Of a stretch of DNA of 24,180 nt, positions 2 to 13,015 are shown in pieces. Positions within the stretch are counted from its first letter, which is position 1. Each line of letters opens with the position of its first letter. Both the position numbers and the translations under genes were made by a program. The notes below the pieces were generated by a model. The model was given only the letters and a program-made list of their open reading frames with translations, did not search any database and was not told the DNA's origin. This DNA is from a virus, in the IMG/VR virus record IMGVR_UViG_3300046777_002767, positions 1 to 24,180 of that record. One strand, 5' to 3'.

Positions 2-307
2 AAAGATATACAAATTATTTTTATTGATGAATGGGTAAAGGATGAAAACTACATTTCCGTTGATGCCATCATTTTTAAAGTTGATATAGAAGATCCGTCA
101 ATGATGGATCATTTTATGGATATAAAAATGGGATACGATGGAGGATATACTTTTTATGAAAAAATAAAAATAGATACTTATGGTGAATATTTAGTCAAAA
201 TAATTGCAAATTACGAAAATGGCACTAGAAAAATTCTAGATCAACAAGAGTTTGTTGTTTTTAAAGAAATTGATTCGGAGGTGCATGATTTTGACTTTGG
301 AATATAA
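2..307 (+). CDS. 3' end of a beta-rich phage protein (5'-truncated)
   Basis: The frame is open from the window edge to TAA at 305-307, so only the last 101 residues are visible. I do not recognise the family. The visible part alternates hydrophobic and charged residues, with a Tyr/Gly-rich stretch (MGYDGGYTFYEKIKI) followed by YGEYLVKIIANYENG. That pattern resembles the closing strands of an immunoglobulin-like or other beta-sandwich domain. The tail is acidic (EVHDFDFGI). The next gene starts inside this one in another frame, with its ribosome site at 277-281, so the two are probably co-transcribed. It could be a virion or adsorption protein or part of the modification cassette. Certain as a coding end, uncertain in function. 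Confidence 0.6.
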   Translation, partial: KDIQIIFIDEWVKDENYISVDAIIFKVDIEDPSMMDHFMDIKMGYDGGYTFYEKIKIDTYGEYLVKIIANYENGTRKILDQQEFVVFKEIDSEVHDFDFGI

Positions 308-938
308 TGTAAGCAAGTTATTCCCAGGACAGGTAGTGTTTTCAAAACATTGCGAGGTTGATAAAGAAGATATTGATTTATTCTATAAATGTAAAGATTT
401 ATTGACAGAAAAAAAATCAGACATTAGAAATTCTATCTGGCAAGTTTTTAATGATTTAGATAAAAAAATAGTGATTAATAAATATCAAAAGTATATCTTA
501 GAGTGCTTGGCTATTTACTGTGATATATACCCAGAATCTATTCATTCTATTCAATGGCAGGAGAAGATAAATATTATAGTTAATAAACCTGGGGAGAATG
601 AAAAAACGTTTAATCCATCTAGATCCTTTGTTGAAAGCGACGGGTATATTAATAATGCCCCGTTTAATAGACAACTTGTAGTAGAACTATATTTAGATAC
701 AGACTATGAGGGGGGTCACCACTCGTTTGAATATATTGACTTAAATAATTATAAACCAGAGTCTGGTGATATTGTTATATACCCAGCATCCTTCTTGTGG
801 TCTAGAAAAGAAAAGAGTATAATAAAGGGTCGTAGAATGTATTTGAGAACATTCTTTAATGGTGGCAAAGACTTCTTTAATGAAGATAAAGATTTAGATT
901 TACCAGGAACAGAGTTGTTCTTTTCTTATATGAGATAG
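291..938 (+). CDS. degenerate prolyl-4-hydroxylase-like 2OG-Fe(II) oxygenase homologue
   Basis: A 215-residue protein (217 from the ATG at 285). The C-terminal half looks like the double-stranded beta-helix of 2-oxoglutarate/Fe(II) dioxygenases of the P4H type: the strand LVVELYLDTDYEGG, then SGDIVIYPASF, then GRRMYLRTFF with an Arg that could hold 2OG. Aligned by eye with the next gene, the proximal H-x-D is E-S-D (about 115-117) and the distal His is replaced around Trp170. The iron site therefore looks lost, which suggests a pseudoenzyme or partner subunit. Start: GGAGG at 277-281 is only 3 nt from ATG285 but 9 nt from TTG291. The same GGAGGTGC-N6-TTGAC layout precedes the gene at 6675, so TTG291 is preferred. 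The family call rests on overall pattern only. Confidence 0.6.
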   Translation: MTLEYNVSKLFPGQVVFSKHCEVDKEDIDLFYKCKDLLTEKKSDIRNSIWQVFNDLDKKIVINKYQKYILECLAIYCDIYPESIHSIQWQEKINIIVNKPGENEKTFNPSRSFVESDGYINNAPFNRQLVVELYLDTDYEGGHHSFEYIDLNNYKPESGDIVIYPASFLWSRKEKSIIKGRRMYLRTFFNGGKDFFNEDKDLDLPGTELFFSYMR

Positions 939-945
939 GATAAAA

Positions 946-1617
946 ATGTTATCAGATGAAGATAACCCAATAGTTCTTCCAGAAGGTATTACTAGAAGGA
1001 CAGAGGCTGGCTGCATAGAAATATTTGAAAACATAATGTCTGATGACATTGCTAAAAAACTTATATCCGTCTTTGAAGATTCACACATTAATGAAGAATG
1101 TCCCGCAGAGTATCAAGAGGCAAGAATTGGTGGAGAAAACATTGTCGGAGGCGAGTATAGGTCTAATTCAGTAATGTCAATTCAAGGCCACACGGATATC
1201 TCTGGGTTTAATGTATGTTCCTGTAAAATGGATGAAGCGGAGAACTTTTTAAGAAGTATTTTTATCCCGTGTGTTAATTTTTATCAATTGAAGTATGACA
1301 TAGAGGTGGCCTTTGATGAAGGACTTCAGTTATTAAAATATGGGCCTGGGAAAGAATATAAGCCTCATGCAGACGCTGGACCTGGGGTAAGCGGTAGGGT
1401 TCTTTCAGGAATAATATTTTTAAATCCATCGGACTATGAAGGTGGCTCAACATATTTTATTAATTTTAATTATAACTTAAAAACTAGTGGTCCATCCATA
1501 GCATTATTTCCTTCAAATTATGCGTATACGCATAGAGCAAAAGCAGTATTTTCTGGAACAAAGTATGCAATAGTAACGTGGATGTGGGCACCATGGTCAG
1601 GACAACCAGATGGGTGA
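946..1617 (+). CDS. 2OG-Fe(II) oxygenase, prolyl-4-hydroxylase-like
   Basis: A 223-residue protein with a complete non-haem iron dioxygenase signature. The motif YKPHADAGPG gives His141 and Asp143 of the H-x-D pair. GRVLSGIIFLN and DYEGGSTYF follow as core strands (151-171). FPSNYAYTHRAKAV gives the distal His196, and SGTKYAIVTW supplies Lys206 as the probable 2-oxoglutarate ligand. Family knowledge: such enzymes hydroxylate an unactivated carbon, often proline C4 in a protein, using O2 and 2OG. No signal peptide is seen, so it should act in the host cytoplasm. ATG946 has AGGA six bases upstream and lies just after the previous stop. Its 3' end overlaps the next oxygenase by 8 nt. The substrate cannot be read from the sequence. 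Confidence 0.85.
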   Translation: MLSDEDNPIVLPEGITRRTEAGCIEIFENIMSDDIAKKLISVFEDSHINEECPAEYQEARIGGENIVGGEYRSNSVMSIQGHTDISGFNVCSCKMDEAENFLRSIFIPCVNFYQLKYDIEVAFDEGLQLLKYGPGKEYKPHADAGPGVSGRVLSGIIFLNPSDYEGGSTYFINFNYNLKTSGPSIALFPSNYAYTHRAKAVFSGTKYAIVTWMWAPWSGQPDG

Positions 1618-2122
1618 TAAAAATCCAATAGTAATAGATAATTACTTTAGTAATGATAGATTGAATAAAATAGTAAACTCAATAAATTCTATGCCAAAGA
1701 GTGAATGGACGTATGATCACCTCTACCGAAGATATAGGATGAGTAGCCCATATGTCACTAAACTGTCAATGTTTGAGTTAGATCGGGCAAGAGAAATATT
1801 TAATAACGATAGTTTATTATATACATACTCTTTATTTTGTCTATACAATCAAAAAGATTCATTTTTAGCAAAACATAAAGATGATAATGCCTGTACATAT
1901 ACATTAGACATATGTCTTTATGCTAAAAATCCCTGGGACATGTATATAGAAGGGGTCCCGTATCAGTCAAAAACTAATAACGCTATATGTTTTTATGGAG
2001 AAGATCAATTACATTGGAGAGAAGAAATGGGTGAGGATAACAGCGTGCTAATGATGTTTATTCATTTTGCAGATAGAGATCATTGGTGGTTTCAGGCAAA
2101 TAATACGGAGTGTATAGCATGA
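1610..2122 (+). CDS. small 2OG-Fe(II) oxygenase (P4H-like)
   Basis: A 170-residue protein, short for the family. The catalytic triad is readable: FLAKHKDDNACTYTLDICLY gives His89 and Asp91, and CFYGEDQLHWREEM gives the distal His135. An obvious basic 2OG ligand about ten residues later is not clear, so cofactor binding is less certain than in the preceding gene. The N-terminal half (PIVIDNYFSNDRLNKIVNSI) matches the usual opening helix of P4H-like enzymes. ATG1610 has AGGA at 1599-1602 with a 7-nt gap, inside the end of the upstream gene. Its TGA overlaps the next ATG (ATGA). It is diverged from the other two oxygenases, so they are not recent copies. Likely a hydroxylase in the same pathway. 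Confidence 0.75.
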   Translation: MGDKNPIVIDNYFSNDRLNKIVNSINSMPKSEWTYDHLYRRYRMSSPYVTKLSMFELDRAREIFNNDSLLYTYSLFCLYNQKDSFLAKHKDDNACTYTLDICLYAKNPWDMYIEGVPYQSKTNNAICFYGEDQLHWREEMGEDNSVLMMFIHFADRDHWWFQANNTECIA

Positions 2123-3366
2123 ATAGAGTAACGCCGTTTGAAAATTATTCAAATACCATTTTTGATAAGAATTTTGAGCAGAGGAATAATAAGACTATTT
2201 TTGTTTCTATACCTTGCTATAGAGATAAAAATGTTATTAATACTATTAAATCTATGATTCTAAACGCAAAACGTCCTGAAAATATTTATATCTCTGTAGC
2301 GTTCTCTCTAATATTAAATCATGAAAAGTGGATTTCAGAAATAAATCAATTAGCCTCATCAAGCAACATAAATTTAAAAGTAAAAGTGCATGAGGTATTT
2401 GAAGTAAATAAGATAGGTGAACTAAGATCTATAGCAGACGCAGAGTACAATAAAGAAGACTACTATATGCAAATATCACCATCTACCGAGTTTGATCCTA
2501 TGTGGGATGATATTTTAATTAAGCAATATGAAGATATTATTAATAATAGACCCAATGAAAAAGTCATTTTTACCTGTGAGCCAAGAGGATATCTTCCGCA
2601 CGATGATGTAGTTGAAGGATATACATTTTTTACTAATCATAAAACAAAAATTTCTATGCAAAGACAAGAGTCTGATTATTGCAGAGTTCCTATTGTTGGT
2701 TTCAATGAATTTGTTTTGCAGGAACATATAGATAGTAACTATACCGATCAAGATGATAGTCAAGGACTATCTCAAATATTACAGGATGAAATAGTTGAAT
2801 CCTTAAAGGCTGAAAAATTCTTAGAAAAAAACGGCTTTCCTATTTTTACCAGTAGATCTTTTAGAAAAGATGAATATATTGCTTCAGCGCTAGGAGTTTC
2901 TTCAAAATTTATTTTTGCAAAAGCAAAAGATTATTTAAAGAATAATCCTGCCGATAGAGATTGCATAGATTTTGAGGAGGCAAATTTTATATCCTTTGTT
3001 AATTTACTTAACTCTGGGTATAGCATTTTTTCATTAAGGTTTACTCCGCTGTATCATCTTTATGAAGGAAAGGATCTTTTTTCTCCAATAAGAAAGTCTC
3101 CTAAAGATTTTTATGAAGATACTGATATGTCAGATACTTCATCGTATAAAAAATGTAAGAAAATAATTGAAGATTTCAATCTTCTAGATATGGATAAAAA
3201 AGCAAGAATGGGTTATTTATTTTCTATAGACTGGGACGCAAATAAGTTTAAAGTTAGATCAAAACAACTAGATGATGTTTTGGTCAAGTGTATAAATTCA
3301 TCAGTATCCTTATACAATTTTTCTATAAATGAAAACACCCTTCATTGGAATAAGACTGGACTATGA
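2119..3366 (+). CDS. GlcNAc-transferase-like protein (PF11397-like), diverged active site
   Basis: A 415-residue protein. The opening strand IFVSIPCYRD (27-36), followed by NVINTIKSMILNAKRPENIYISV, is very typical of the family of Skp1 hydroxyproline GlcNAc-transferase (PF11397). The later block NLLNSGYSIFSL...PLYHLY (about 295-315) matches the family's C-terminal motif. The metal and sugar-nucleotide motif, normally D-S-H after a YY-L strand, reads YYMQISPSTEF (115-125). The usual G-E-E reads F-E-E. Catalysis may therefore be altered or lost. ATG2119 is preferred over GTG2110: it overlaps the previous TGA as ATGA and has GGAG at 2107-2110, 8 nt upstream. It sits between the hydroxylases and the tandem unknown family. 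Confidence 0.72.
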   Translation: MNRVTPFENYSNTIFDKNFEQRNNKTIFVSIPCYRDKNVINTIKSMILNAKRPENIYISVAFSLILNHEKWISEINQLASSSNINLKVKVHEVFEVNKIGELRSIADAEYNKEDYYMQISPSTEFDPMWDDILIKQYEDIINNRPNEKVIFTCEPRGYLPHDDVVEGYTFFTNHKTKISMQRQESDYCRVPIVGFNEFVLQEHIDSNYTDQDDSQGLSQILQDEIVESLKAEKFLEKNGFPIFTSRSFRKDEYIASALGVSSKFIFAKAKDYLKNNPADRDCIDFEEANFISFVNLLNSGYSIFSLRFTPLYHLYEGKDLFSPIRKSPKDFYEDTDMSDTSSYKKCKKIIEDFNLLDMDKKARMGYLFSIDWDANKFKVRSKQLDDVLVKCINSSVSLYNFSINENTLHWNKTGL

Positions 3367-4067
3367 AAAAAATAATATTTACTAATACAGTTTCAGAATT
3401 AGATGATGCTGCTATTATGCCATCACCATCTCTAAAAAGTTTGCCTGGGTGGTATAAAAAAACAGAGTCATTTGTCGGAGGCAAGTTTACCCCCGCTGAA
3501 GGTATGCCTAATCTAACCGTAAAAAAATGTGTCCCAGTACTAGATAGCATTGGTCTCGGGTATATAATAACTCTATGGACAGACGTATATGTTGAGAGGG
3601 AGGGTAATCAAACATCATTTCAGCCCAGCATTGTTAGAACTGAAACAAAACCAGTAGATGGACACCCTATAGAGCAGCAGGCTCCGCTCTATCCAGTACC
3701 ACCAGGATTTGATAGACAAATTTTAAAATGGATAAATCCATGGCATATAAAAACTCCTAGGGGTTATAGTTGTTTTTTTACCACTCCAATACATAGAGAT
3801 TTACCTTTCCAAATTATGGAGGGGGTAGTGGACACAGATACATTCCCATTGTCAGTCAACTTCCCATTCTTTTTAAGATCAGACTTTTCTGGAACAATTC
3901 CTCACGGAACTCCTATAGCACAAGTAATACCCTTTAAGAGAGATAATTTTGTATCAGAAAAAGGGGAGTTTGATTCTAAAAAATATTCTTCAATACATAA
4001 TTATCACGACACAACATTTTTTAATAGATATAAAAATAAATGGTGGTCTAGGAAGGTCTTCAAATGA
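3363..4067 (+). CDS. uncharacterised tandem paralogue 1 (DUF6065-like?)
   Basis: A 234-residue protein, first of three adjacent paralogues. Blocks shared with the two downstream genes: LPGWYKK near the N terminus (27-33), KKCVPVLDSIGLGYII (54-69), KTPRGYSCFFTTPIHRDLPF (130-149), GVVDTDTF (154-161), and GTIPHGTPIAQVIPFKRD (177-194), ending in a W-x-RK tail. The last block, in which a strand after G-T-P carries I/V-P-F-K-R, hints at an all-beta fold. From memory the pattern resembles DUF6065, which has no known function; this was not checked. This copy is the most diverged, with C-P for C-M-P and an extra Pro-rich loop (about 95-114). ATG3363 overlaps the previous TGA (ATGA). Its place among hydroxylases and transferases suggests a role in the same modification, as inference only. 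Confidence 0.6.
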   Translation: MKKIIFTNTVSELDDAAIMPSPSLKSLPGWYKKTESFVGGKFTPAEGMPNLTVKKCVPVLDSIGLGYIITLWTDVYVEREGNQTSFQPSIVRTETKPVDGHPIEQQAPLYPVPPGFDRQILKWINPWHIKTPRGYSCFFTTPIHRDLPFQIMEGVVDTDTFPLSVNFPFFLRSDFSGTIPHGTPIAQVIPFKRDNFVSEKGEFDSKKYSSIHNYHDTTFFNRYKNKWWSRKVFK

Positions 4068-4819
4068 TTTTTAAAAGTTTGTTTAATAAAAAAAATAATG
4101 TAGAGAATGAATATGAAAACATAGAGTTTATAGCCAGAGATGATTTTATAAACGCTGCCTCATCCCCACCTATTCCAGCAAAAAATATGATGCCAGAATG
4201 GTATAAAAATATTCCTCCACATCATACTAGAAGCCCAGATTTTGATGAAAGGCATGGAAACAATAACTCAACTATGAAACAATGTATGCCCTTCTTTGAC
4301 AGTCTTACTGCTGGGTATCTAATGCTTACCCCATGCGACATAGTTGTAGAAAAATCCTTTGATGGTAAGACTGCTAAAATTTTTTGCAATGAAATGTTTT
4401 CAGTAGTTGGTGAAAGGGGCGCTCCAGGAAAACACTCTATGCCAATACCAGATGACTATTATCGAATAGAATATACTTGGAAAACTCATTGGGAAGCAAA
4501 AACTCCTAAAGGATATAGTTGTCTATACACTCATCCAATAAATAGGCCCGACCTACCATTTTATACAATTTCTGGTGTTATGGATACAGACAATTGGTAT
4601 CTTACAGGAAACCATCCATTTTTTATAAAAAAGGGTTTTGAGGGAGTAATTCCTCTTGGTACTCCAATGATGAGTATCATGCCGTTTAAAAGAAACTCTT
4701 GGAGATCTTCAAGTAGAGCGGTAGATGTAATGGAAAGAGATCTTTTGCAGGCTAAGGTTAGAAGACATGCTAGCGGAGGATATAAAAAAGAAATATGGGG
4801 TAGAAAGGATTATTCATGA
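4064..4819 (+). CDS. uncharacterised tandem paralogue 2 (DUF6065-like?)
   Basis: A 251-residue protein and the longest of the triplet, with an extra ~25 residues at the N terminus. It carries the full shared pattern: PAKNMMPEWYKNIPP (38-52), KQCMPFFDSLTAGY (72-85), CD at 91-92, W...HWEAKTPKGYS (139-152), YTHPINRPDLPFY (155-167), GVMDTDNW (171-178), PFFIKKGFEGVIPLGTPM (185-202) and a GGYKKEIWGRKDY-type C terminus. The invariant Cys, Trp, Asp-Thr-Asp and His positions could form a ligand or metal site, but no catalytic motif is recognised. ATG4064 overlaps the previous TGA, with AGGAAGG at 4050-4056 and a 7-nt gap. It resembles the following copy more than the preceding one. Confidence 0.6.
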   Translation: MIFKSLFNKKNNVENEYENIEFIARDDFINAASSPPIPAKNMMPEWYKNIPPHHTRSPDFDERHGNNNSTMKQCMPFFDSLTAGYLMLTPCDIVVEKSFDGKTAKIFCNEMFSVVGERGAPGKHSMPIPDDYYRIEYTWKTHWEAKTPKGYSCLYTHPINRPDLPFYTISGVMDTDNWYLTGNHPFFIKKGFEGVIPLGTPMMSIMPFKRNSWRSSSRAVDVMERDLLQAKVRRHASGGYKKEIWGRKDYS

Positions 4820-5514
4820 TAGTAGAATGGGTTCCACAGAATGAATATGCTGAAAAACATATTCCACCTCCTTTGCCTGCTAAAAATTTTATTCCAGATT
4901 GGTATAAAACAATGCCGCCCTTCCAGTCAGGACATACCCCAAAAGTTATAGGAACTAAGGCAGACGCTACTGCTAAAATGTGTATGCCGCTTATGGATTC
5001 TTTTTCAATAGGTTATATACAAAGCACATGGTGCGATATTTTTGTTCAAAAAGATCACCAGGGAACAAAATTATTTCAGGCAAACGACTCACAACCTATT
5101 TTTAGAGTAGGTGAGCCTAGCAAGCCAGAGAAAATAATATGCCCACCAGGATACATAGATGTATCTTCATCTTGGTGGACTCAATGGGAGCCAAAAACTC
5201 CTAAGGGATGGTCTACAATATACACACATACTTTAAATAATTACTCTCAACCATTTTATACAATGTCTGGTGTTGTAGATACAGATCAATGGTGGCTTGG
5301 CGGTTCTATCCCATTTTTTATTCAGGAGGGTTTTGAAGGACTTATTCCTGCCGGAACCCCCATGTATCAAATAATTTTTATTAAAAGAGAAAATTGGCGG
5401 TCAAAGACGTTAGAGTATTCTCAAGACTCTATTAAAACATTGTATGATTCAGTATTCAATAGTTTTTATGGTGGATACAGAAAGTTAAAGTGGAGCAAGA
5501 AACAGTATGAATGA
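4816..5514 (+). CDS. uncharacterised tandem paralogue 3 (DUF6065-like?)
   Basis: A 232-residue protein, third of the triplet. It begins almost at the conserved region: PLPAKNFIPDWYKTMPP (19-35), then AKMCMPLMDSFSIGY (53-67), CDIF (73-76), WWTQWEPKTPKGWS (120-133), YTHTLNNYSQPFY (136-148), GVVDTDQWW (152-160) and PFFIQEGFEGLIPAGTPM (166-183). It is unusually rich in Trp and Pro and has no signal peptide or membrane segment. ATG4816 overlaps the previous TGA (ATGA), with AAAGGA at 4803-4808. It overlaps the next gene by 8 nt, so expression of the run is probably translationally coupled. Function unknown. Confidence 0.6.
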   Translation: MIVEWVPQNEYAEKHIPPPLPAKNFIPDWYKTMPPFQSGHTPKVIGTKADATAKMCMPLMDSFSIGYIQSTWCDIFVQKDHQGTKLFQANDSQPIFRVGEPSKPEKIICPPGYIDVSSSWWTQWEPKTPKGWSTIYTHTLNNYSQPFYTMSGVVDTDQWWLGGSIPFFIQEGFEGLIPAGTPMYQIIFIKRENWRSKTLEYSQDSIKTLYDSVFNSFYGGYRKLKWSKKQYE

Positions 5515-6694
5515 AAAAATATTTGTCTCCATTCCCACTATGAATGATTCTGAATATCTTCCAACAATAGAAAGGTTACTATCGTCGGCTCAATTTCCAG
5601 AAAGAGTTCATATTGGTACTACTATTTTTTGGAAAAAAGATGATCTTCCCATATATGGTGCGCCATTTTTCTATAAATTTATAAAAGAACTAGAATCTAA
5701 ATACTCATCTAATGTGAGTTTTGATGTATTGCCTTGGGAAAAATATAAAGGCGTTGGTAATGGCAGAATAGAGCCACTAAAACATTATAATAATGAGAAA
5801 TACTATTTATCATTAGACTCTCATACGGTATGTATAAAAAATTGGGACAGAGTATTAATAGAGAGATACGAGAATGCAAAAAAATATTTTGGAAGAATGA
5901 TTTGCTTAACCACATATTTGCCAAACTATTACTCCGAAGACGATAAAAAAAATCTATCAGACGTTGCTGATGATATTACAGATTCACATTATGGCCTAGA
6001 TATTGATCTAGGCATGAATGTAGTCTTTCCAAAAGGAGATAGCATATCTAGATGGCAGTTCTTTGACTACAATCATCATCTACCCAGAAAGTACTTTCAT
6101 GAAGATTATATCTTTCCATTTCCAAATGATTGTAGGCTATCAAGTGATAGTAAAGTCCTAGATAATATAATTGAAGATCAATATCTTCCTGCTAAAAAAA
6201 TATCAGCGCATTTTACTTTTACAGAAGCAAATCCATGGCTTACAGGACACCGTATAAACTTACATCCAGATATTCTTTTTTGGGGTGAAGAATTTTATCA
6301 ATCCTGCCTAGCATATGCTAGAGGTTATAATTTAGTCTGGATAAAAGATCCAATATTTTTTCACCACTATGTTCCACTTACGGCAAAAAAGGTAACAATT
6401 AGCAACTATGAAAATAATAATTCTCTAAGAAGAATAGAAGAGATAATTGAGTATGATTCATTCTCTGATAAAAATAATATATTCAATCAATATATTAATA
6501 GTAATGATGAATTAAACAATAAAATACGGTTAGAAGAAAATATAGCAATAAAAAATTTATTAGAAAATAAAGATTTTTTTGGACATATGCCAAGAAGTAC
6601 TATGGCTTTTTGTAGATACGCAAAAATAAATGTACTAAAAAGAACAACTGCTCCCTGGTGGGAGGTGCCAAAAATTGACATTATTTTCAAATGA
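5507..6694 (+). CDS. GlcNAc-transferase family protein (PF11397-like), intact motifs
   Basis: A 395-residue GT-A-type glycosyltransferase. It opens with KIFVSIPTMNDSEYLPTIE (4-22), the family's first strand and helix. KYYLSLDSHTVCIKNWD (98-114) holds the D-S-H metal and sugar-nucleotide motif (Asp104, His106). WGEEFYQSCLAYARGYNLV (259-277) holds the G-E-E block with the catalytic-region acidic pair, and PIFFHHY (282-288) is the usual closing motif. Eukaryotic members transfer GlcNAc from UDP-GlcNAc to hydroxyproline of Skp1; bacterial and phage members are mostly uncharacterised. The start overlaps the previous gene by 8 nt, with GGAG upstream. With three P4H-like genes close by, this is the best candidate for the transferase step of the proposed pathway. 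The acceptor is unknown. Confidence 0.8.
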   Translation: MNEKIFVSIPTMNDSEYLPTIERLLSSAQFPERVHIGTTIFWKKDDLPIYGAPFFYKFIKELESKYSSNVSFDVLPWEKYKGVGNGRIEPLKHYNNEKYYLSLDSHTVCIKNWDRVLIERYENAKKYFGRMICLTTYLPNYYSEDDKKNLSDVADDITDSHYGLDIDLGMNVVFPKGDSISRWQFFDYNHHLPRKYFHEDYIFPFPNDCRLSSDSKVLDNIIEDQYLPAKKISAHFTFTEANPWLTGHRINLHPDILFWGEEFYQSCLAYARGYNLVWIKDPIFFHHYVPLTAKKVTISNYENNNSLRRIEEIIEYDSFSDKNNIFNQYINSNDELNNKIRLEENIAIKNLLENKDFFGHMPRSTMAFCRYAKINVLKRTTAPWWEVPKIDIIFK

Positions 6695-7439
6695 AAAAGT
6701 ATTTATGCCATTTAGAGAGGATAGCGCTGGACAGAGAAACCCTATGTTAGAGTTATCAAAAGAATACTACGAAAAAATTGGGCTGTCCGTAGAAATAGTA
6801 GATTCTGATTCAGATGACTTTAATAGATTCCAATGCTATAACGACGTTTTTAAAAAGTACGACGTTGAATATGCATTAATAATAAATGCAGATACAATTC
6901 TTCCTCCAGTATCAATATATAAATCATTTGAAATAATAAAAAATGAAGATGTTGTAGTTAAACCATCTTTTAAAACTGTTCGTATAAAAAATATGGAAAA
7001 AGAATTTATAGAAAAATTAATTAATAATGATATATTGGATAATTTTGTTTCCTTAGGATCTACACCATCCTTTCATCTAGGAACCTCTTGGGCAATTAAT
7101 AGAAAAACATGGGAAAAGGTTGGTGGATTTAATGAAACCTATTTAGACTCTATATTTTGTAATTTAGACTTTGCAATTAGATCATCAATATGTGCAAAAC
7201 TTATTTTTTTAAATTATGATTCATACGCATTTTCACATGCCCTACCATTTCCAAGATATGACATATTAGATCATAAGAATAGAATAAACTTATTAAATAA
7301 ATTTTTCTTAGATGAAAATAGAAATGTCTCTTATTTTATAAATAATGAAGTAAATAAATTAGAATCAGACGATATAGATCAAATTTTAGACGTAGATAAT
7401 TTTATTAAAAACTATTGTTTAGATAAGTTTATTTGTTAA
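6675..7439 (+). CDS. GT-A glycosyltransferase (GT2/GT27-like), TTG start
   Basis: A 254-residue protein. EYALIINADTILPP (65-78) carries the D-x-D-like N-A-D at 71-73. GTSWAINRKTWEKVGGFNE (136-154) is the classic acceptor-side block of GT-A transferases, and FCNLDFAIRS (161-170) supplies the following acidic residue. His188 fits the late metal-binding His. This suggests transfer from a nucleotide-sugar, possibly extending the sugar placed by the preceding enzyme. The TTG at 6675 is chosen because GGAGG (6661-6665) sits 9 nt upstream, and no other start fits before the conserved start region. It overlaps the previous gene by 20 nt. Its 3' end overlaps the minus-strand acetyltransferase by 11 nt. 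Confidence 0.75.
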   Translation: MTLFSNEKVFMPFREDSAGQRNPMLELSKEYYEKIGLSVEIVDSDSDDFNRFQCYNDVFKKYDVEYALIINADTILPPVSIYKSFEIIKNEDVVVKPSFKTVRIKNMEKEFIEKLINNDILDNFVSLGSTPSFHLGTSWAINRKTWEKVGGFNETYLDSIFCNLDFAIRSSICAKLIFLNYDSYAFSHALPFPRYDILDHKNRINLLNKFFLDENRNVSYFINNEVNKLESDDIDQILDVDNFIKNYCLDKFIC

Positions 7440-7938
7440 ATTTTTCATACCATTCAGAGTACACATAATAATTTCCGTCTTCTGCTAAGAATTCGTCTAT
7501 ATCATCTTGGTATTTAATACACCATTTAGATATTATATTCTCTATGTATGGATTCTGCCGCTGATCTGGAAGAGGCGGAGGAGCCTGAAACTTGATTCCC
7601 TGAACAGCAAAAAAACTTCTAATAGATCCACCTAGAAAATATCCCACTCCACAGTTCTGGTAATCATCAGAAATAAATAAACCCGCTATGTAATATATAT
7701 CAGATCCCTCTGGTTCATACCACATAATTTTACCAATTATGTCATTTTCCTGGAGAGTCATGCCAGATATAACAAACTCTTTATCATCGTAGTCGTCTGT
7801 TTGGACCAAGTAGGCACTTCTAAATCTATTTTCAGATAATGACTCCTCCATACAAACCCAAGCGGAGATATCAATATCGGGCCACTCATTATTATAGAAG
7901 TCTGGGTCATGAACTATATCTTTGAAGGTTTCTCTCAT
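7429..7938 (-). CDS. GNAT-family N-acetyltransferase-like protein
   Basis: A 169-residue protein and the only convincing minus-strand gene here. YIAGLFISDDYQNCGVGYFL fits GNAT motif A: a strand, then the Q-x-x-G-x-G pyrophosphate loop of acetyl-CoA (QNCGVG at 94-99), then a helix. An upstream strand (ENDIIGKIMWYEP) fits the preceding core sheet. The Pro-rich loop after the helix (APPPLPDQRQNPY) is unusual. ATG7938 is preferred over the TTG at 7968 because a perfect TATAAT lies 6 nt before the ATG, inside the longer reading; the message would be leaderless. It overlaps the cassette tail to tail. It may acetylate an amino sugar or a protein, but nothing shows which. It looks like an independently regulated moron. 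Confidence 0.65.
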   Translation of the reverse strand: MRETFKDIVHDPDFYNNEWPDIDISAWVCMEESLSENRFRSAYLVQTDDYDDKEFVISGMTLQENDIIGKIMWYEPEGSDIYYIAGLFISDDYQNCGVGYFLGGSIRSFFAVQGIKFQAPPPLPDQRQNPYIENIISKWCIKYQDDIDEFLAEDGNYYVYSEWYEKFNK

Positions 7939-7944
7939 AAATAT

Positions 7945-7950
7945 ATTATA
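7945..7950 (-). promoter_or_regulatory. -10 box of a putative leaderless promoter for the acetyltransferase
   Basis: Read on the minus strand, TGG-TATAAT is followed by six bases and then the ATG at 7938. This is an extended -10 (TGn) that would start transcription at or next to the first base of the start codon. No Shine-Dalgarno site is present and no good -35 box is seen. Confidence 0.6.
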
Positions 7951-7979
7951 CCAAGTGAAATAAAACAATACTTATAGGC

Positions 7980-7985
7980 TACAAT
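7980..7985 (+). promoter_or_regulatory. -10 box of a putative leaderless promoter for the LamG-like gene
   Basis: TACAAT lies seven bases before ATG7993, and there is no Shine-Dalgarno sequence between them. It stands back to back with the minus-strand -10 box at 7945-7950, with 29 nt between the two. The two promoters would therefore share their upstream contact region. Confidence 0.5.
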
Positions 7986-7992
7986 ATGATAT

Positions 7993-8841
7993 ATGATTAA
8001 ATACCTTGGTGCAGTTGGGGCTTTCATACGTTTAAATGATAACGAAAATAAAACCTATACTCTTTTAAATGTATATTCTTCATCAGCGGCACAACTATCA
8101 CTATTCTCTGCAAGTGTCAACAATCTATCTGGCGCTGTGACATTTGATTCTGCCTCAACTTCTTTATATGTAAATGGAGTATCTGGGTCAGTTATTCCAA
8201 GCAAACAATGGGCACACGTTACGTTTTCTTTTAATGATAAGTTGAGTACTTATGACTCTAATAATTTTCTAATTAGATTTGGACACGCTGCCTCAAGCAA
8301 TTTCAATATACAAAACCTTTACATATTAGAAAATTCCTTTACTGATTCAGAGGTTGGTTATCTTCATCAAGAATTTACAGGTGGAACGACAAATAAATTA
8401 ACCGTTCCACCATCGGCTTCATACTCTATCAATATTATTGATTACCCAGAAACTAATTTCACCTCTGCCTCTACAAATGTAATCTATCAACCATCATTTG
8501 GACAAAACAAATATCTAATGGATATAAGTGCCGTGGCGGAAGATAGCCTTAGTAAATTTGTTTCTGCATCAGTAATGACAAACGATAACTTGTACATAGA
8601 CTCAGTAAATGTAAGTATTGGAGATAATATTTTATCTCTGGCAGATAATCAAATATATCAGTTAACCTCATCCTCACAACTTATTACGGTATCAAGTTCT
8701 GTAGGAGATGTTGTTAAAGTTCTATACGGTCAATATTTCAACCGAATTTCTTTCATAAAGACTGCTAGTGGGTTCAGCGTTGAGCCAATAGTGGTAAAAA
8801 TTAACTCATACCTGAACACCATACAGTCAAATAATGCCTAA
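7993..8841 (+). CDS. LamG/concanavalin-like beta-sandwich protein, probable virion or host-contact protein
   Basis: A 282-residue protein very rich in Ser, Asn and Thr. The first ~130 residues have the pattern of a laminin-G-like jelly roll: SLYVNGVSGS, then KQWAHVTFSF, then NFLIRFGHA, NIQNLYILENSFTDSEV and a final LHQEF. This matches the usual 'ligand strand, W-x-H-V strand, identification of the element' order of LamG domains. The second half is also beta-rich and Ser-rich and is not recognised. Phages use such domains in adsorption or decoration proteins that touch glycans. ATG7993 follows a -10 box by 7 nt and lacks a ribosome site. Its position just before the head genes, beside the modification cassette, makes it a possible target of that modification (speculative). 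Confidence 0.55.
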   Translation: MIKYLGAVGAFIRLNDNENKTYTLLNVYSSSAAQLSLFSASVNNLSGAVTFDSASTSLYVNGVSGSVIPSKQWAHVTFSFNDKLSTYDSNNFLIRFGHAASSNFNIQNLYILENSFTDSEVGYLHQEFTGGTTNKLTVPPSASYSINIIDYPETNFTSASTNVIYQPSFGQNKYLMDISAVAEDSLSKFVSASVMTNDNLYIDSVNVSIGDNILSLADNQIYQLTSSSQLITVSSSVGDVVKVLYGQYFNRISFIKTASGFSVEPIVVKINSYLNTIQSNNA

Positions 8842-8846
8842 TGTGG

Positions 8847-8852
8847 TATTAT
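8847..8852 (+). promoter_or_regulatory. -10 box of a putative leaderless promoter at the start of the head module
   Basis: TGG-TATTAT (extended -10) is followed by seven bases and then ATG8860. No ribosome site lies between. It stands in the 18-nt gap after the LamG-like gene, so it could drive the small pre-portal gene, portal and downstream genes. Confidence 0.55.
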
Positions 8853-8859
8853 TTGGTAC

Positions 8860-9186
8860 ATGGGACTTGAAGTAGTAAGAGATAAAAGTAATTTTGGCAT
8901 CTATGTATGGCTCCTACCAGAAGGTGGAGTCTTCAAAGATGATGACGATAATGTTCTTAATATCCCATCTGAGCGTGGTGACATTACAAAGATGGCTGAA
9001 CTTCGTAAAGCAGCAGCACATTATGGTCAACCAGACGGTCAAGCAGTATTCATTCCTGGTATTGGGCGGGTAACAGAAGAAGAGTACCAGGAAGATAAGT
9101 ATCGCATGGAAAACGGTTTATTAAGTTATGGCGACACAGGAGCGTGGAGAGATGCAGCAAGAACCAGAAGAGACCTGGATAGATAA
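8860..9186 (+). CDS. small conserved pre-portal phage protein
   Basis: A 108-residue soluble protein. A short beta-rich opening (MGLEVVRDKSNFGIYVWLLP) with an acidic KDDDDN loop is followed by AAHYGQPDGQAVFIPGIGR and by VTEEEYQEDKYRMENGLLSYG. I recognise the G-Q-P-D-G-Q...P-G-x-x-x-x-x-E-E-Y pattern as one found in small proteins just upstream of portal genes in actinobacterial and related phages; no function is known. It starts 7 nt after a -10 box. Its last 35 nt overlap the portal start. Possible roles include portal assembly or DNA packaging. The call is by context. Confidence 0.6.
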   Translation: MGLEVVRDKSNFGIYVWLLPEGGVFKDDDDNVLNIPSERGDITKMAELRKAAAHYGQPDGQAVFIPGIGRVTEEEYQEDKYRMENGLLSYGDTGAWRDAARTRRDLDR

Positions 9187-10753
9187 CGTTGGCCTGAGTA
9201 AGGCCATGAATCCAGAATCATTTATCCCTGTAGATAAAGATGATTTTAATCAGGATGCCGATACAATTCTTAATCTTAATGGTCTGTCACAAAATTTCAA
9301 AAGATCTGTTAGGCGTAAATTAAATAAAAGCCTTATAACTGCAGGCGGAGAAATTGTAACAGCAGAAGACAATATGTACGCTGGAGATGATGCTACCTCT
9401 AAGCAAATTATTCCAGATAAGTATGGATACGGTATCTTTGATGTTGTAGAGCCTCTTTATAATCCTTATGCATTGGCTAAAATCTATGAACTATCTGCTC
9501 CCAACTATTCAGCAATTAATGCTAAGGTAGCAAATATTGTTGGCCTGGGGTACGACTTACTGCCCACTCTTAATATTATGGAAAAACTTGAGTCTATCTC
9601 AAACACAGAAGAACTTGGCAGGGTAAGAAGAAATCTCGCCCGTCAAAAATCTCGCGTTATTGATTGGTTAGAAACAAGAAACGACGATGATACGTTTACC
9701 ATGACATTGATGAAAGCCTATATTGATGCAGAATCGACAGGAAATGGCTATATTGAGATAGGAAGAAAAACAACTGGAGAAATTGGCTATATTGGACATA
9801 TTCCTGCTCCAACTATGAGGGTACGACGTTTAAGAGATGGATTTGTTCAGATTGTTAATGGAAAGGCTGTATTCTTCCGTAACTTCCAGGGTGAAGAAAA
9901 GAATCCTATCACTACCGATCCTCGTCCTAATGAGATAATTCATATTAAGAATTACACTCCTACAAATACTTATTATGGCCTTCCTGCAATTGTTGCTGCT
10001 AAAAATGCTATGGCAGGAAATGAATTTGCCTCCCGATTTAACCTAGAGTACTTTGAGAATAAGGCTGTGCCACGTTATATTTTCTGGCTTAAGGGCGCAA
10101 AAATGTCACGGGCGGCAGAGGAAAGACTGTTTGAATTCTTCCAAGGAAACTTGCGCGGACAGTCTCATAGAACAGCCATTATTCCTATTCCTGGCGACAC
10201 TCCAGATCATAAGGTAGAAATGAAGATGGAGCCCATTGAGACTAATATCCAAGATTCATCATTCAACAACTATAAGAAGATGAACAAGGATGAAATTCTT
10301 ATGGCTCACCGTGTACCTGCCTCCAAAGTAGGGTCTACAGAAGGAATTGGTTTGGCGGCGGCAAGAGAAGCAGATAGAACCTTTAAAGAACAAGTTTGTC
10401 GTCCAGCCCAGGATGCATTAGAAAAGAAGATAAATAAAATCATTTCTGAGAAAACAGATTCTTTCAAGTTTGAATTCAATGAACTGACACTTACTGATGA
10501 AGAGACAAGATCAAAGATTGATGAACGGTATCTTAGAATGCAAGTTATTGTTCCTAATGAAGTAAGAGAGAGACTTGGAATGTCAACGCTTCCTAGCGGA
10601 GATACTCCAGTTGTTCTTAATGCTCAGGCTCAAGCAGAACAAACTGCACAGTCAACTAGAAATAGAGTAAGAGACCAACAGCGTGCTTCAAATGCTCCAG
10701 ACAGCGATGAGTTGGGAAGAGCAACACAAGGAGAAGGTAGGCAGCAAAATTAA
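9152..10753 (+). CDS. portal protein (HK97/PBSX-type, Phage_portal family)
   Basis: A 533-residue protein that would form the dodecameric channel at the capsid vertex for DNA entry and exit. Family marks in order: YNPYALAKIYELSAPNYSAI near the N terminus; a stem region with GNGYIEIGR and GYIGHIPAPTMRVRR; EIIHIKNYTPTNTYYGLPAI; the conserved GLAAAREADRTFKEQVCRPA; and FEFNELTLTDEETRS before a Gln/Ala-rich disordered tail. ATG9152 is chosen because AGGAG (9138-9142) lies 9 nt upstream; the ATG at 9128 has no ribosome site. It overlaps the preceding gene. No terminase gene is in the window, so packaging genes must lie elsewhere, probably upstream. Confidence 0.92.
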   Translation: MQQEPEETWIDNVGLSKAMNPESFIPVDKDDFNQDADTILNLNGLSQNFKRSVRRKLNKSLITAGGEIVTAEDNMYAGDDATSKQIIPDKYGYGIFDVVEPLYNPYALAKIYELSAPNYSAINAKVANIVGLGYDLLPTLNIMEKLESISNTEELGRVRRNLARQKSRVIDWLETRNDDDTFTMTLMKAYIDAESTGNGYIEIGRKTTGEIGYIGHIPAPTMRVRRLRDGFVQIVNGKAVFFRNFQGEEKNPITTDPRPNEIIHIKNYTPTNTYYGLPAIVAAKNAMAGNEFASRFNLEYFENKAVPRYIFWLKGAKMSRAAEERLFEFFQGNLRGQSHRTAIIPIPGDTPDHKVEMKMEPIETNIQDSSFNNYKKMNKDEILMAHRVPASKVGSTEGIGLAAAREADRTFKEQVCRPAQDALEKKINKIISEKTDSFKFEFNELTLTDEETRSKIDERYLRMQVIVPNEVRERLGMSTLPSGDTPVVLNAQAQAEQTAQSTRNRVRDQQRASNAPDSDELGRATQGEGRQQN

Positions 10754-10783: not shown

Positions 10784-13015
10784 ATGATTATTAATAAAGC
10801 ACACTTCGATGTAGATGGAGATAGTCTCCGTCTTACTATGCCTATTGCTAAAGTAGATGAAGAGCGCAGAGTAGTTAGCGGATTTGCCACCCTTGACAAT
10901 ATAGACCGTCAAGGGGATATTCTTTTATCAGAGGCATCAAGAAAAGCATTTGAGAATTTTAGAGGAAACGTCCGCTTGATGCATCAGCCAATTCCTGCCG
11001 GAAAAGTTATTTCTTTCCGCGAAAACTCTTTCTATGATCAAGAAACTGGAAAAACGTACAGCGGTATATTCGTTGACGCATACATCTCTAAAGGTGCAGA
11101 AAATATTTGGCAAATGGTTCTAGATGGCACTCTTACAGGTTTTTCAATCGGTGGCAGGATTGTAGATTTTGAGAATAAGATGGACGATCAAGATGCTGAT
11201 CGTGGCGCAGTAAGGGTTGTAAAAGAATATGAACTCATGGAACTCTCTCTAGTTGATAGCCCAGCCAATCAATTTGCTAACATTTTCTCTATTCAAAAAT
11301 TAGGTGATGAAATTGTTACATCTGGAATTGCAACAGAATTTTCTACAGAAAATGTTTTTTGGTGTGCTTCAGACAAGATCGCCCTGACTGAAAAGTCTGA
11401 CTCTGCAGATTGTCCAGTTTGCCAAAACTCTATGAATGAAATCGGCTGGGTGGAATCAACAGACTTAAACAAGAATGAAGAGGTTGGAAGACTTGTGGAT
11501 GGCTTTATTTCAAAGGCAGACTCAGTAAGAGTAGGAGATTTTGTATCATGGGGTTCAAGCGGTGGAACGGCTAGAGGAAAGGTCGAAAGAGTTGTACGAT
11601 CTGGATCTATAAATGTTCCTGGCTCAGATTTTACCATTAACGCAGAAGAGGGAAATCCTGCTGTTTTAATTAGAGTTTATCGTAAGGGTGCCGATGGATG
11701 GGCTCCTTCAGATATAAGGGTTGGTCACAAGATGAGTACTCTTAGAAGAATTTCCGCTCTAAGCACTAAGATGCACGATGAAGATATGGAGGGAGAGGAT
11801 CTAGAAAAAGAAACAGTAACTAGTGAAAATACTCCTGCTCGTAATGCACAGCAAGGTTTGCCTGGAGGAATTCCAAAGGCTCCACGAAAGAAAAAGCGTA
11901 TGTACCGCAAAGATGAAGGTATGGTTAAGTCTGGAGACTATGTAGTATTTTCAGACAATGCAAAACTTTCTAAGGGCCGTGTGGATGTTATTGATACAGA
12001 GAAAGCAGCGGTTAGAATTTACAAAGAGGTGGCAGATAACAAGTTCCAGCCAACAAATAACATCGTAACTAAAAATATTACAGACTTAACAAAAATTAAG
12101 GTTGCAAGTAAAAAAGCATTAGAGAAGTCATTATCAAATGAAGATATTGATCATCTAAATACCTTAATTTCTCAGCATAATGAAAAATATGGTAATGTTG
12201 ATTCTAAGAATGTCTCATTCGATATGCTGCGTAAGGTTTTTGAGCGCGGCATAGCAGCATTTAAGGCTAACCCAGAGATGCAAAAATCAGATGAGTATTC
12301 TCCTGAGCAATGGGCGTATGCAAGAGTTAATGGATTCTTGCAGGCGGTAAGATCAGGAAAGTTCAACAACAGACCATATGACACAGATTTGTTGCCAAAG
12401 GGTCACCCATTGTCAACGAAAAAGTCAGATAATTCAGAGGAAAATGAACTGGCTTTACAAAAACGAGAAGGAGGTGTTGAAATGGCTGACAATAATACAA
12501 GCCATGAAGAACTTGACACCGCCGAGGCAACAGACGAGACTTCTGAGGAAGTAACGTTTGAAGTAGAAGAAACTGTAGAGGACGTAGTTACGGAAGCCCT
12601 TGCTATGGCTAAGTCCGATGGTGTTGAGGCTGAAGTTGCCGATGATACCACCTCTGAAGTTTTTGACATGGAAAAGGCCCTTGGCGAAGTTAAGTCTTTC
12701 GTAGAAGAGACAATTACTAAGTCCATTGAAACTAATACCGAATCACTTGAAAAGTTCTCCAATGCAGTAGTCGAACTTGCTAAGGCAGTTGACGAAAAGA
12801 TTGGTCAACTTCAATCAAAGTATGAAGAGGTTACCAAAAGTTTAGCCGATCTTAATTCTGCTGCTGTAGAAATCGCTAATCGCGTGGAATCAGTAGAAGA
12901 AGAAACGGCAATTAAGAAGTCTGGCGAACTGGAATCCAGTATCCCAGAGCAACCCATAATGAAGAAATCAGTATGGGGCGGACGCTTCCTCAGTTCCGCA
13001 GAAGTATTTAACTAA
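10784..13015 (+). CDS. prohead (capsid maturation) protease with Zn-ribbon, Tudor-like and C-terminal scaffold regions
   Basis: A 743-residue protein, several times the length of a bare phage protease. Residues ~1-170 form an S78/XkdF-like serine protease: VSGFATLDNIDRQGDIL, NVRLMHQP with His67, and ELMELSLVDSPAN with the nucleophile Ser155. A Cys cluster follows (Cys194, CPVC 210-213), like a small zinc ribbon. SVRVGDFVSWGSSGGTARGK (247-266) opens a Tudor/KOW-like barrel, and a second diverged one begins at MVKSGDYVVFS (380-390). Residues ~450-545 form a helical module ending DTDLLPKGHPLS. From 567 on, the acidic, coiled-coil-rich tail looks like a scaffold and has its own internal start. 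It should digest scaffold during head maturation. Confidence 0.85.
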   Translation: MIINKAHFDVDGDSLRLTMPIAKVDEERRVVSGFATLDNIDRQGDILLSEASRKAFENFRGNVRLMHQPIPAGKVISFRENSFYDQETGKTYSGIFVDAYISKGAENIWQMVLDGTLTGFSIGGRIVDFENKMDDQDADRGAVRVVKEYELMELSLVDSPANQFANIFSIQKLGDEIVTSGIATEFSTENVFWCASDKIALTEKSDSADCPVCQNSMNEIGWVESTDLNKNEEVGRLVDGFISKADSVRVGDFVSWGSSGGTARGKVERVVRSGSINVPGSDFTINAEEGNPAVLIRVYRKGADGWAPSDIRVGHKMSTLRRISALSTKMHDEDMEGEDLEKETVTSENTPARNAQQGLPGGIPKAPRKKKRMYRKDEGMVKSGDYVVFSDNAKLSKGRVDVIDTEKAAVRIYKEVADNKFQPTNNIVTKNITDLTKIKVASKKALEKSLSNEDIDHLNTLISQHNEKYGNVDSKNVSFDMLRKVFERGIAAFKANPEMQKSDEYSPEQWAYARVNGFLQAVRSGKFNNRPYDTDLLPKGHPLSTKKSDNSEENELALQKREGGVEMADNNTSHEELDTAEATDETSEEVTFEVEETVEDVVTEALAMAKSDGVEAEVADDTTSEVFDMEKALGEVKSFVEETITKSIETNTESLEKFSNAVVELAKAVDEKIGQLQSKYEEVTKSLADLNSAAVEIANRVESVEEETAIKKSGELESSIPEQPIMKKSVWGGRFLSSAEVFN
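12468..12476 (+). promoter_or_regulatory. strong internal Shine-Dalgarno site inside the protease gene
   Basis: AAGGAGGTG is a near-perfect complement to the 16S rRNA tail. It lies 7 nt (counted from GGAGG) before an in-frame ATG at 12482. It is among the strongest ribosome sites in the window, comparable to that of the major tail protein, yet it sits within a reading frame. Confidence 0.8.
12482..13015 (+). CDS. nested in-frame capsid scaffold protein
   Basis: A 177-residue product that would share its frame and stop with the protease gene, starting at protease residue 567 (MADNNTSHEELD). The first ~65 residues are highly acidic. The middle (MEKALGEVKSFVEETITK... to ...VEEETAIKK) has long predicted coiled-coil heptads, and the end is basic and short (KKSVWGGRFLSS). 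Length, charge and coiled coil fit a phage scaffold, and the major capsid gene follows at once. The arrangement matches lambda C/Nu3, in which scaffold is made from an internal start in the protease gene. The strong internal ribosome site supports it; the protein itself is inferred. Confidence 0.7.
   Translation: MADNNTSHEELDTAEATDETSEEVTFEVEETVEDVVTEALAMAKSDGVEAEVADDTTSEVFDMEKALGEVKSFVEETITKSIETNTESLEKFSNAVVELAKAVDEKIGQLQSKYEEVTKSLADLNSAAVEIANRVESVEEETAIKKSGELESSIPEQPIMKKSVWGGRFLSSAEVFN

Follow-up and report, generated by a model that had tools for sequence, protein, structure and literature searches.

What does a phage modify when it pairs prolyl 4-hydroxylase (P4H)-like 2-oxoglutarate (2OG) oxygenases with glycosyltransferases of family PF11397? 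The question is raised by the IMG/VR virus record IMGVR_UViG_3300046777_002767, of which positions 1 to 24,180 (24,180 bases) were analysed and are referred to here as the window. Bases 285-7439 form a single overlapping run of the genes P4H1, P4H2, P4H3, GT1, U1, U2, U3, GT2 and GT-A. A preliminary description, made from the letters of the DNA, had placed this gene set in one overlapping run beside virion genes. Every gene was confirmed, and the enzyme families that it named are correct according to Pfam and PHROG profile scores and a structure model of P4H3. The run itself also stands, although its start has moved from base 291 to the ATG of P4H1 at 285. We suggest that the cassette is, on balance, a phage module for post-translational modification of the phage's own tail fibre, by hydroxylation of proline at the Y position of collagen-like G-X-Y triplets and, probably, by glycosylation.

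P4H2 (946..1617, plus strand) encodes a prolyl-4-hydroxylase-type 2OG-Fe(II) oxygenase that matches PF13640 (6e-11; 43.6 bits against a cut-off of 27), as do 17/17 of its relatives. Across these 17 relatives the iron site, H141-x-D143 and H196, is invariant, and the basic 2OG-binding residue K206 nearly so. Compared with the PDB, the family profile finds a Bacillus P4H (5e-11), a Chlamydomonas P4H (7e-6) and also prolyl 3-hydroxylase and lysyl hydroxylase. Nearest in the PDB are P4Hs of Bacillus that carry the annotation procollagen-proline dioxygenase, placing P4H2 nearest to the peptidyl-prolyl hydroxylases, and this is its predicted activity. P4H3 (1610..2122, plus strand) encodes a second 2OG oxygenase with an intact site (H89-x-D91, H135) that is invariant in 27 relatives; searches of cultured phages and of prokaryote genomes gave no relative. 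It matched no Pfam model. Its structure model (predicted local distance difference test score, pLDDT, 93.4) is a double-stranded beta-helix with Z scores of about 15-16 to 2OG oxygenases, and its matches include HIF prolyl hydroxylases, the Pseudomonas putida P4H and a Dictyostelium prolyl hydroxylase. P4H1 (285..938, plus strand) is P4H-like (phrog_3531 4e-7, phrog_61 5e-5) and scores only below cut-off against Pfam. The H-x-D of the iron site is absent from the window copy and from ten homologues, and the P4H1 protein is probably non-catalytic. The two oxygenases in which an H-x-D...H motif had been read at the outset are thus P4H2 and P4H3. In PHROG families 3531, 2954 and 2297 (window 285-2122), which match 2OG oxygenases, names such as "ferrochelatase" and "DNA endonuclease" look like misannotation.

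The same cassette was found in seven related loci (L003, L004, L186, L188, L268, L269 and L273), a search of related phages having been proposed in the preliminary description. Since the set recurs in this way, it is not a chance assembly. Most of these loci have the whole cassette; P4H3 is missing from L004 and L188, and in L186 the run is broken and U copies are fewer. A glycine-rich, collagen-like fibre with G-X-Y tracts is encoded 1-2 kb upstream of P4H1 in 7/7 loci. In alignment the fibres keep an invariant glycine register, with 29-41 G-X-Y triplets each, and the L004 fibre, the one tested, matches phage tail fibres (phrog_5073). Against the Collagen model PF01391 the L004 fibre scored 16.4 bits, below the cut-off of 27.2, and the L003 fibre gave no match. 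The window opens inside a small gene (2..307, plus strand, 3' end only) with no family match, equivalent in position to L004 8248-8730 and L005 7660-8175. In the relatives this gene lies between the fibre pair and P4H1, and the window phage's own fibre, if present, is therefore off the contig. A search with P4H1 gave no relative that would extend the window leftwards.

The site of collagen P4H is the proline at Y of G-X-Y (X-Pro-Gly). Bacteria and viruses were said in 2012 to lack collagen P4H, in a study of E. coli prophage collagens that were described as compensating with extra proline at X (PMC3368898). The window-type fibres show the opposite arrangement: the proline Y:X ratio is 79:3 in the seven fibres, as against 26:260 in the collagen-like proteins of phage loci that lack P4H. 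Y-dominant proteins make up 7/7 of the former and 0/11 of the latter (p=3e-5, a value that is optimistic because the seven fibres are homologous). Proline content follows the enzymes as well, being 6.6% in the glycine-rich part of fibre homologues with both P4H and glycosyltransferase, 4.7% with P4H and 3.1% with neither (P4H-linked versus none, p=3e-4). Two cultured cyanophages fall between the window-type and P4H-free groups. P-SSM2 has five collagen-like genes, PCMG_00023, 24 and 26-28, just upstream of a P4H (proline X:Y 131:47), and S-CAM7 has a fibre with a 49-triplet collagen run two genes upstream of its P4H (51:28).

Linkage of P4H to proline-rich genes was followed more widely in scans seeded by the glycosyltransferase, P4H3 and U families, seeds not picked for proline, which yielded about 240 viral loci. 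Of the P4H3 loci, 53 have 2.5 kb or more of DNA upstream, and in 51/53 of these a proline-rich open reading frame (ORF) lies no more than 4 kb upstream, a count that includes the window-type locus L108. With loci clustered at 80% P4H identity, proline-rich ORFs make up 23/434 of those no more than four genes from a P4H and 3/764 of those further off, and 0/1000 permutations reached the observed locus count. Clustering at 60% leaves 6/235 versus 0/475 (p=0.001), with small numbers and a weak permutation test. The repeats are of varied type, including (TP)n, (TPVAP)n, (TPPA)n, (PPFF)n and (PPHF)n. When ten of the proline-rich proteins were checked, nine matched PHROG families and eight matched virion families, chiefly those of tail fibres or minor tail proteins. 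The 24 kb phage contig G003 (IMGVR_UViG_3300046804_005163; L027/L028) carries two separate P4H gene runs, each beside a PPFF-repeat fibre. A cysteine-rich C-terminus is common to both fibres, and one run has at least seven P4H-like genes around a U gene.

Both GT1 (2110..3366, plus strand; 3.2e-19) and GT2 (5507..6694, plus strand; 1.5e-24) lie far above the Pfam cut-off for PF11397 (GT60-type), at 70.1 and 87.5 bits against 21, as their initial assignment to this family had anticipated. The nucleotide/metal motif of PF11397/GT60 transferases is D-x-H. GT2 has it intact as D-S-H, and all seven close relatives keep it; in GT1 it is replaced throughout the window-type relatives, and a sister group retains it. 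Because P4H1 is without H-x-D and GT1 without D-x-H, each step would have one catalytic and one degenerate member. The last gene of the run, for a GT-A-like transferase (6675..7439, plus strand), matches phrog_1721 (galactosyl transferase, 4e-11) and reaches a Pfam model only below cut-off; its acidic motif is missing in some relatives. PDB sequence searches with the glycosyltransferase, P4H3 and U families returned no relatives.

The acceptor of GT2 can be approached by analogy. Gnt1 of the Skp1 pathway is a GT60 enzyme that requires hydroxyproline (PMC6939170), and threonine is the other known GT60 acceptor (PMC9472816). Of the hydroxylation-glycosylation route put forward in the preliminary description, the hydroxylation step is supported by the fibre context; transfer of N-acetylglucosamine (GlcNAc) onto hydroxyproline is plausible from the PF11397 family, yet threonine is an alternative and GT1 is without D-x-H. 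Distant PF11397 genes are found in XacN1 and Stenotrophomonas jumbo phages, with no P4H or proline-rich fibre near that of XacN1. In L089 and L097-L099 a PF11397 gene without P4H stands directly 3' of a TP-repeat ORF, although loci with the transferase alone are not significant overall. G001, the relative with the longest contig, encodes GDP-mannose dehydratase, an fcl-like NAD-dependent epimerase and a DegT aminotransferase (L018 2999-4925 and 1840-3036), a possible source of sugar donors.

The cassette changes much faster than the genes beside it. Compared with the sister phage G002 (L004), virion genes are 85-98% identical (tape measure 83% over the aligned part), whereas cassette genes are 36-64% identical. 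The boundary between the hypervariable cassette on the left and the conserved virion genes on the right lies at base 7980, where DNA identity to G002 climbs from about 66% to 89%. A block that keeps its gene order but changes quickly in content, next to virion genes that stay constant, would be expected of surface variation. The targets first proposed, namely the LamG-like protein, the capsid or a host glycan, are unsupported: the first two are 96-97% conserved in G002, where the cassette has diverged as described, and the upstream collagen-like fibre, found in 7/7 relatives, is the best candidate.

Between the two PF11397 genes lie U1 (3363..4067, plus strand; 1e-43), U2 (4064..4819, plus strand) and U3 (4816..5514, plus strand; 9e-34), paralogues of phrog_7084. 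For the U2 model (pLDDT 92.0) the best Foldseek match is at 6.6e-4, and nearly all listed matches are dUTPases or dCTP deaminases. In VIA-align all of the listed matches are dUTPases (Z 8.8-9.7), the best being 3h6x with a root-mean-square deviation of 3.6 over 121 residues. A dUTPase-like fold is likewise assigned to U3 and, from the U2 model, to U1, and we read the three as a diverged dUTPase-fold trio. They perhaps form a heterotrimer; a role as helper of the module is suggested with low confidence. A single phrog_7084 gene is present in haloarchaeal tailed viruses (L008 8857-9741 in HF1 and L009 8848-9717 in HSTV-2), where the homologue adjoins ribonucleotide reductase or thymidylate synthase, fitting a dUTPase-like fold. 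The U proteins were also considered as ordinary dUTPases. The fold fits, but at E 0.1 the dUTPase family profile PF00692 matches nothing in the window, G001 or G002, and a canonical dUTPase is encoded elsewhere in HF1. The best score of U1-U3 against DUF6065 (PF19541) was 15.4 bits, under the cut-off of 26.6.

From these data we infer a substrate, an order of steps, a sugar and a biological role. P4H2 and P4H3, using 2OG, Fe(II) and O2, would hydroxylate Y-position proline of the upstream collagen-like fibre, and of all the steps we regard this as the likeliest. GT2, perhaps partnered by the degenerate GT1, would then add a sugar, probably GlcNAc, to hydroxyproline or to a neighbouring serine or threonine; for glycosylation of the fibre at hydroxyproline or threonine the chances appear about even. 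Both activities are predicted from sequence, hydroxylation with the better support. P4H1 and GT1 would, with moderate confidence, be non-catalytic subunits or substrate-binding partners rather than enzymes. The GT-A enzyme may lengthen the sugar, an extension held with low confidence, and the three dUTPase-fold proteins may assemble as a heterotrimer. Hydroxylation would stabilise the fibre, and its surface would gain a variable coat from the sugars. A more elaborate proposal, of a dedicated hydroxyproline-glycoprotein pathway for the fibres of tailed phages in which enzymes encoded next to their substrate, pairs of catalytic and pseudo-enzymes for every step and a dUTPase-derived heterotrimeric helper form a hypervariable block that alters the fibre's glycan coat against an otherwise constant virion, is tentative and more doubtful than the fibre module as such.

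Several observations weigh against modification of the fibre. The fibre gene of the window phage itself falls outside the visible sequence, and the seven fibres of its relatives share homology and are not independent. Some collagen-like proteins linked to P4H have proline at X only (X:Y 32:0 in L289, 30:0 in L227 and 19:0 in L300). The P4H-like genes of ACG-2014f and S-SCSM2R lie away from such proteins, and clusters of sugar or metabolic genes house other phage P4H-like genes. Where PF11397 occurs without P4H, no link to proline-rich ORFs is seen (3/34, p=0.24), and the family alone is therefore not claimed as a marker of proline-rich substrates. The preliminary description had looked to profile and fold comparison to tell P4H-type from small-molecule enzymes. 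P4H2 falls in a P4H-type family, while the fold of P4H3 resembles free-amino-acid hydroxylases and halogenases too and does not settle its substrate. Finally, an analysis cited in a review (PMC7019647) found no hydroxyproline in particles of chlorella virus PBCV-1 despite the encoded P4H.

The resemblance of P4H3 to small-molecule enzymes also bears on the possibility that oxygenases and transferases together build or decorate a glycan, either a host polysaccharide or a small molecule, for example to block superinfection, with the fibre as a coincidental neighbour. Both cassette and fibre would then lie in a hypervariable host-interaction region; G001 has gmd, the fcl-like epimerase and the DegT aminotransferase; and several 2OG oxygenases of S-SCSM2R (L343) share their neighbourhood with glycosyltransferases, an epimerase, a radical SAM protein and an inosamine amidinotransferase, in what looks like a glycan or small-molecule cluster. 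Pelagimyophage glycosyltransferases have been interpreted likewise (PMC7029224). We consider this unlikely, as it leaves unexplained the Y-position proline bias, the proline content of the fibres and the 51/53 linkage across unrelated repeat types, and P4H2 is nearest to peptidyl-prolyl hydroxylases. Slightly less unlikely is that the fibre is only hydroxylated and that the transferases and U proteins, as mere neighbours, serve another glycan. Many P4H pairs lie beside proline-rich fibres without PF11397, which is present in 14/78 P4H3-seeded loci, and PF11397 by itself shows no link to proline-rich genes. However, the window-type genes overlap in one run of conserved order, and proline content peaks where P4H and glycosyltransferase are both present.

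Other substrates appear much less probable than the fibre. The P. putida P4H is reported to act on EF-Tu, and the match of the P4H3 model to this enzyme and to the HIF and Dictyostelium prolyl hydroxylases would suit a host protein. The known enzymes are single-site, however, whereas here a repetitive proline-rich virion protein adjoins in many phages, and the pace of change in the cassette matches that of surface genes; modification of a host protein is accordingly improbable. DNA hypermodification, with hydroxylation of a base followed by its glycosylation, is the least credible of the alternatives. Pairs of 2OG oxygenase and transferase do make base J and some hypermodified bases of phages, and the U proteins are dUTPase-like in fold. 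Yet the families matched by the oxygenases are of P4H type, a TET/JBP model is matched by none of them, and proteins are the substrates of those GT60 enzymes that have been characterised (PMC6939170, PMC9472816).

Downstream of the run, on the opposite strand, lies a gene for a GNAT acetyltransferase (7429..7968, minus strand; PF00583, 2.7e-4). A homologue occupies the equivalent place in L004 and none was found in L003, and it is uncertain whether the gene belongs to the module. It is followed by genes for the weakly LamG-like protein (below the Pfam cut-off), portal (7e-37), prohead protease, capsid (phrog_1623, 7e-65) and tail proteins, tape measure among them. The prohead protease gene (10784-13015) also encodes a TUDOR-like domain (PF11160) and has a weak match to DUF5824, an unusual combination. 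In L186 several genes (6830-9991), including WhiB-like and IMP-dehydrogenase-like ones, split the cassette between U1 and U2. WhiB, to our knowledge confined to Actinobacteria and the phages that infect them, is present in two cassette phages (2e-13 and 6e-18).

The genome evidence strongly suggests that a known type of protein modification has a variant in surroundings from which it had been presumed absent. In aquatic viruses, P4H genes rank with the most abundant auxiliary genes; in the words of a 2022 survey, the use made of them "remains cryptic" (PMC9301287). The linkage to proline-rich and collagen-like fibres, together with the switch of proline from X to Y, gives a specific substrate and site, and the prediction is testable in phages already in culture. 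A literature search that did not cover most subscription papers turned up nothing that ties phage P4H to the repeats of fibres. Should the prediction hold, phage fibres are rich in hydroxyproline, probably glycosylated, and coated in a way that changes rapidly, with implications for how hosts are recognised, how stable the fibres are and how phages compete. Elsewhere, such finishing of proteins is linked with animal collagen and the cell walls of plants and algae.

The Skp1 pathway is eukaryotic and continues downstream with PgtA and AgtA. Like the cassette, it has a P4H (PhyA) followed by a GT60/PF11397 transferase (Gnt1) that requires hydroxyproline, in Dictyostelium and Toxoplasma (PMC6939170). 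It differs in modifying one site on a cytoplasmic ubiquitin-ligase subunit for oxygen sensing, whereas the cassette would act on a repetitive virion fibre and has degenerate paralogues of both enzymes; the comparison is a works-like analogy only. Bacillus P4H acts on collagen-like proteins, and collagen prolyl 4-hydroxylation resembles the cassette in the proposed X-Pro-Gly site and in the kinship of P4H2 with the Bacillus P4Hs. The difference here is that the cassette is phage-encoded beside its putative substrate and coupled to PF11397 transferases. In mycobacteriophages, phage transferases glycosylate virion structural proteins, with consequences for surface variation, but there is no hydroxylation step and the transferases are of other families. 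PBCV-1 differs in being a eukaryotic virus, and we know of no PF11397 partner for its P4H. It is alike, and the closest precedent among viruses, in that the virus-encoded P4H (Eriksson 1999, cited in PMC7019647) was proposed to act on viral proline-rich proteins. In the hydroxyproline-rich glycoproteins of algae and plants, as is proposed for the phage, a P4H acts on proline-rich repeats that are then O-glycosylated, and the (TP)n and (AP)n motifs are similar (PMC11015965). These glycoproteins are made with other glycosyltransferase families, whereas the phage would finish a virion protein without a secretory pathway.

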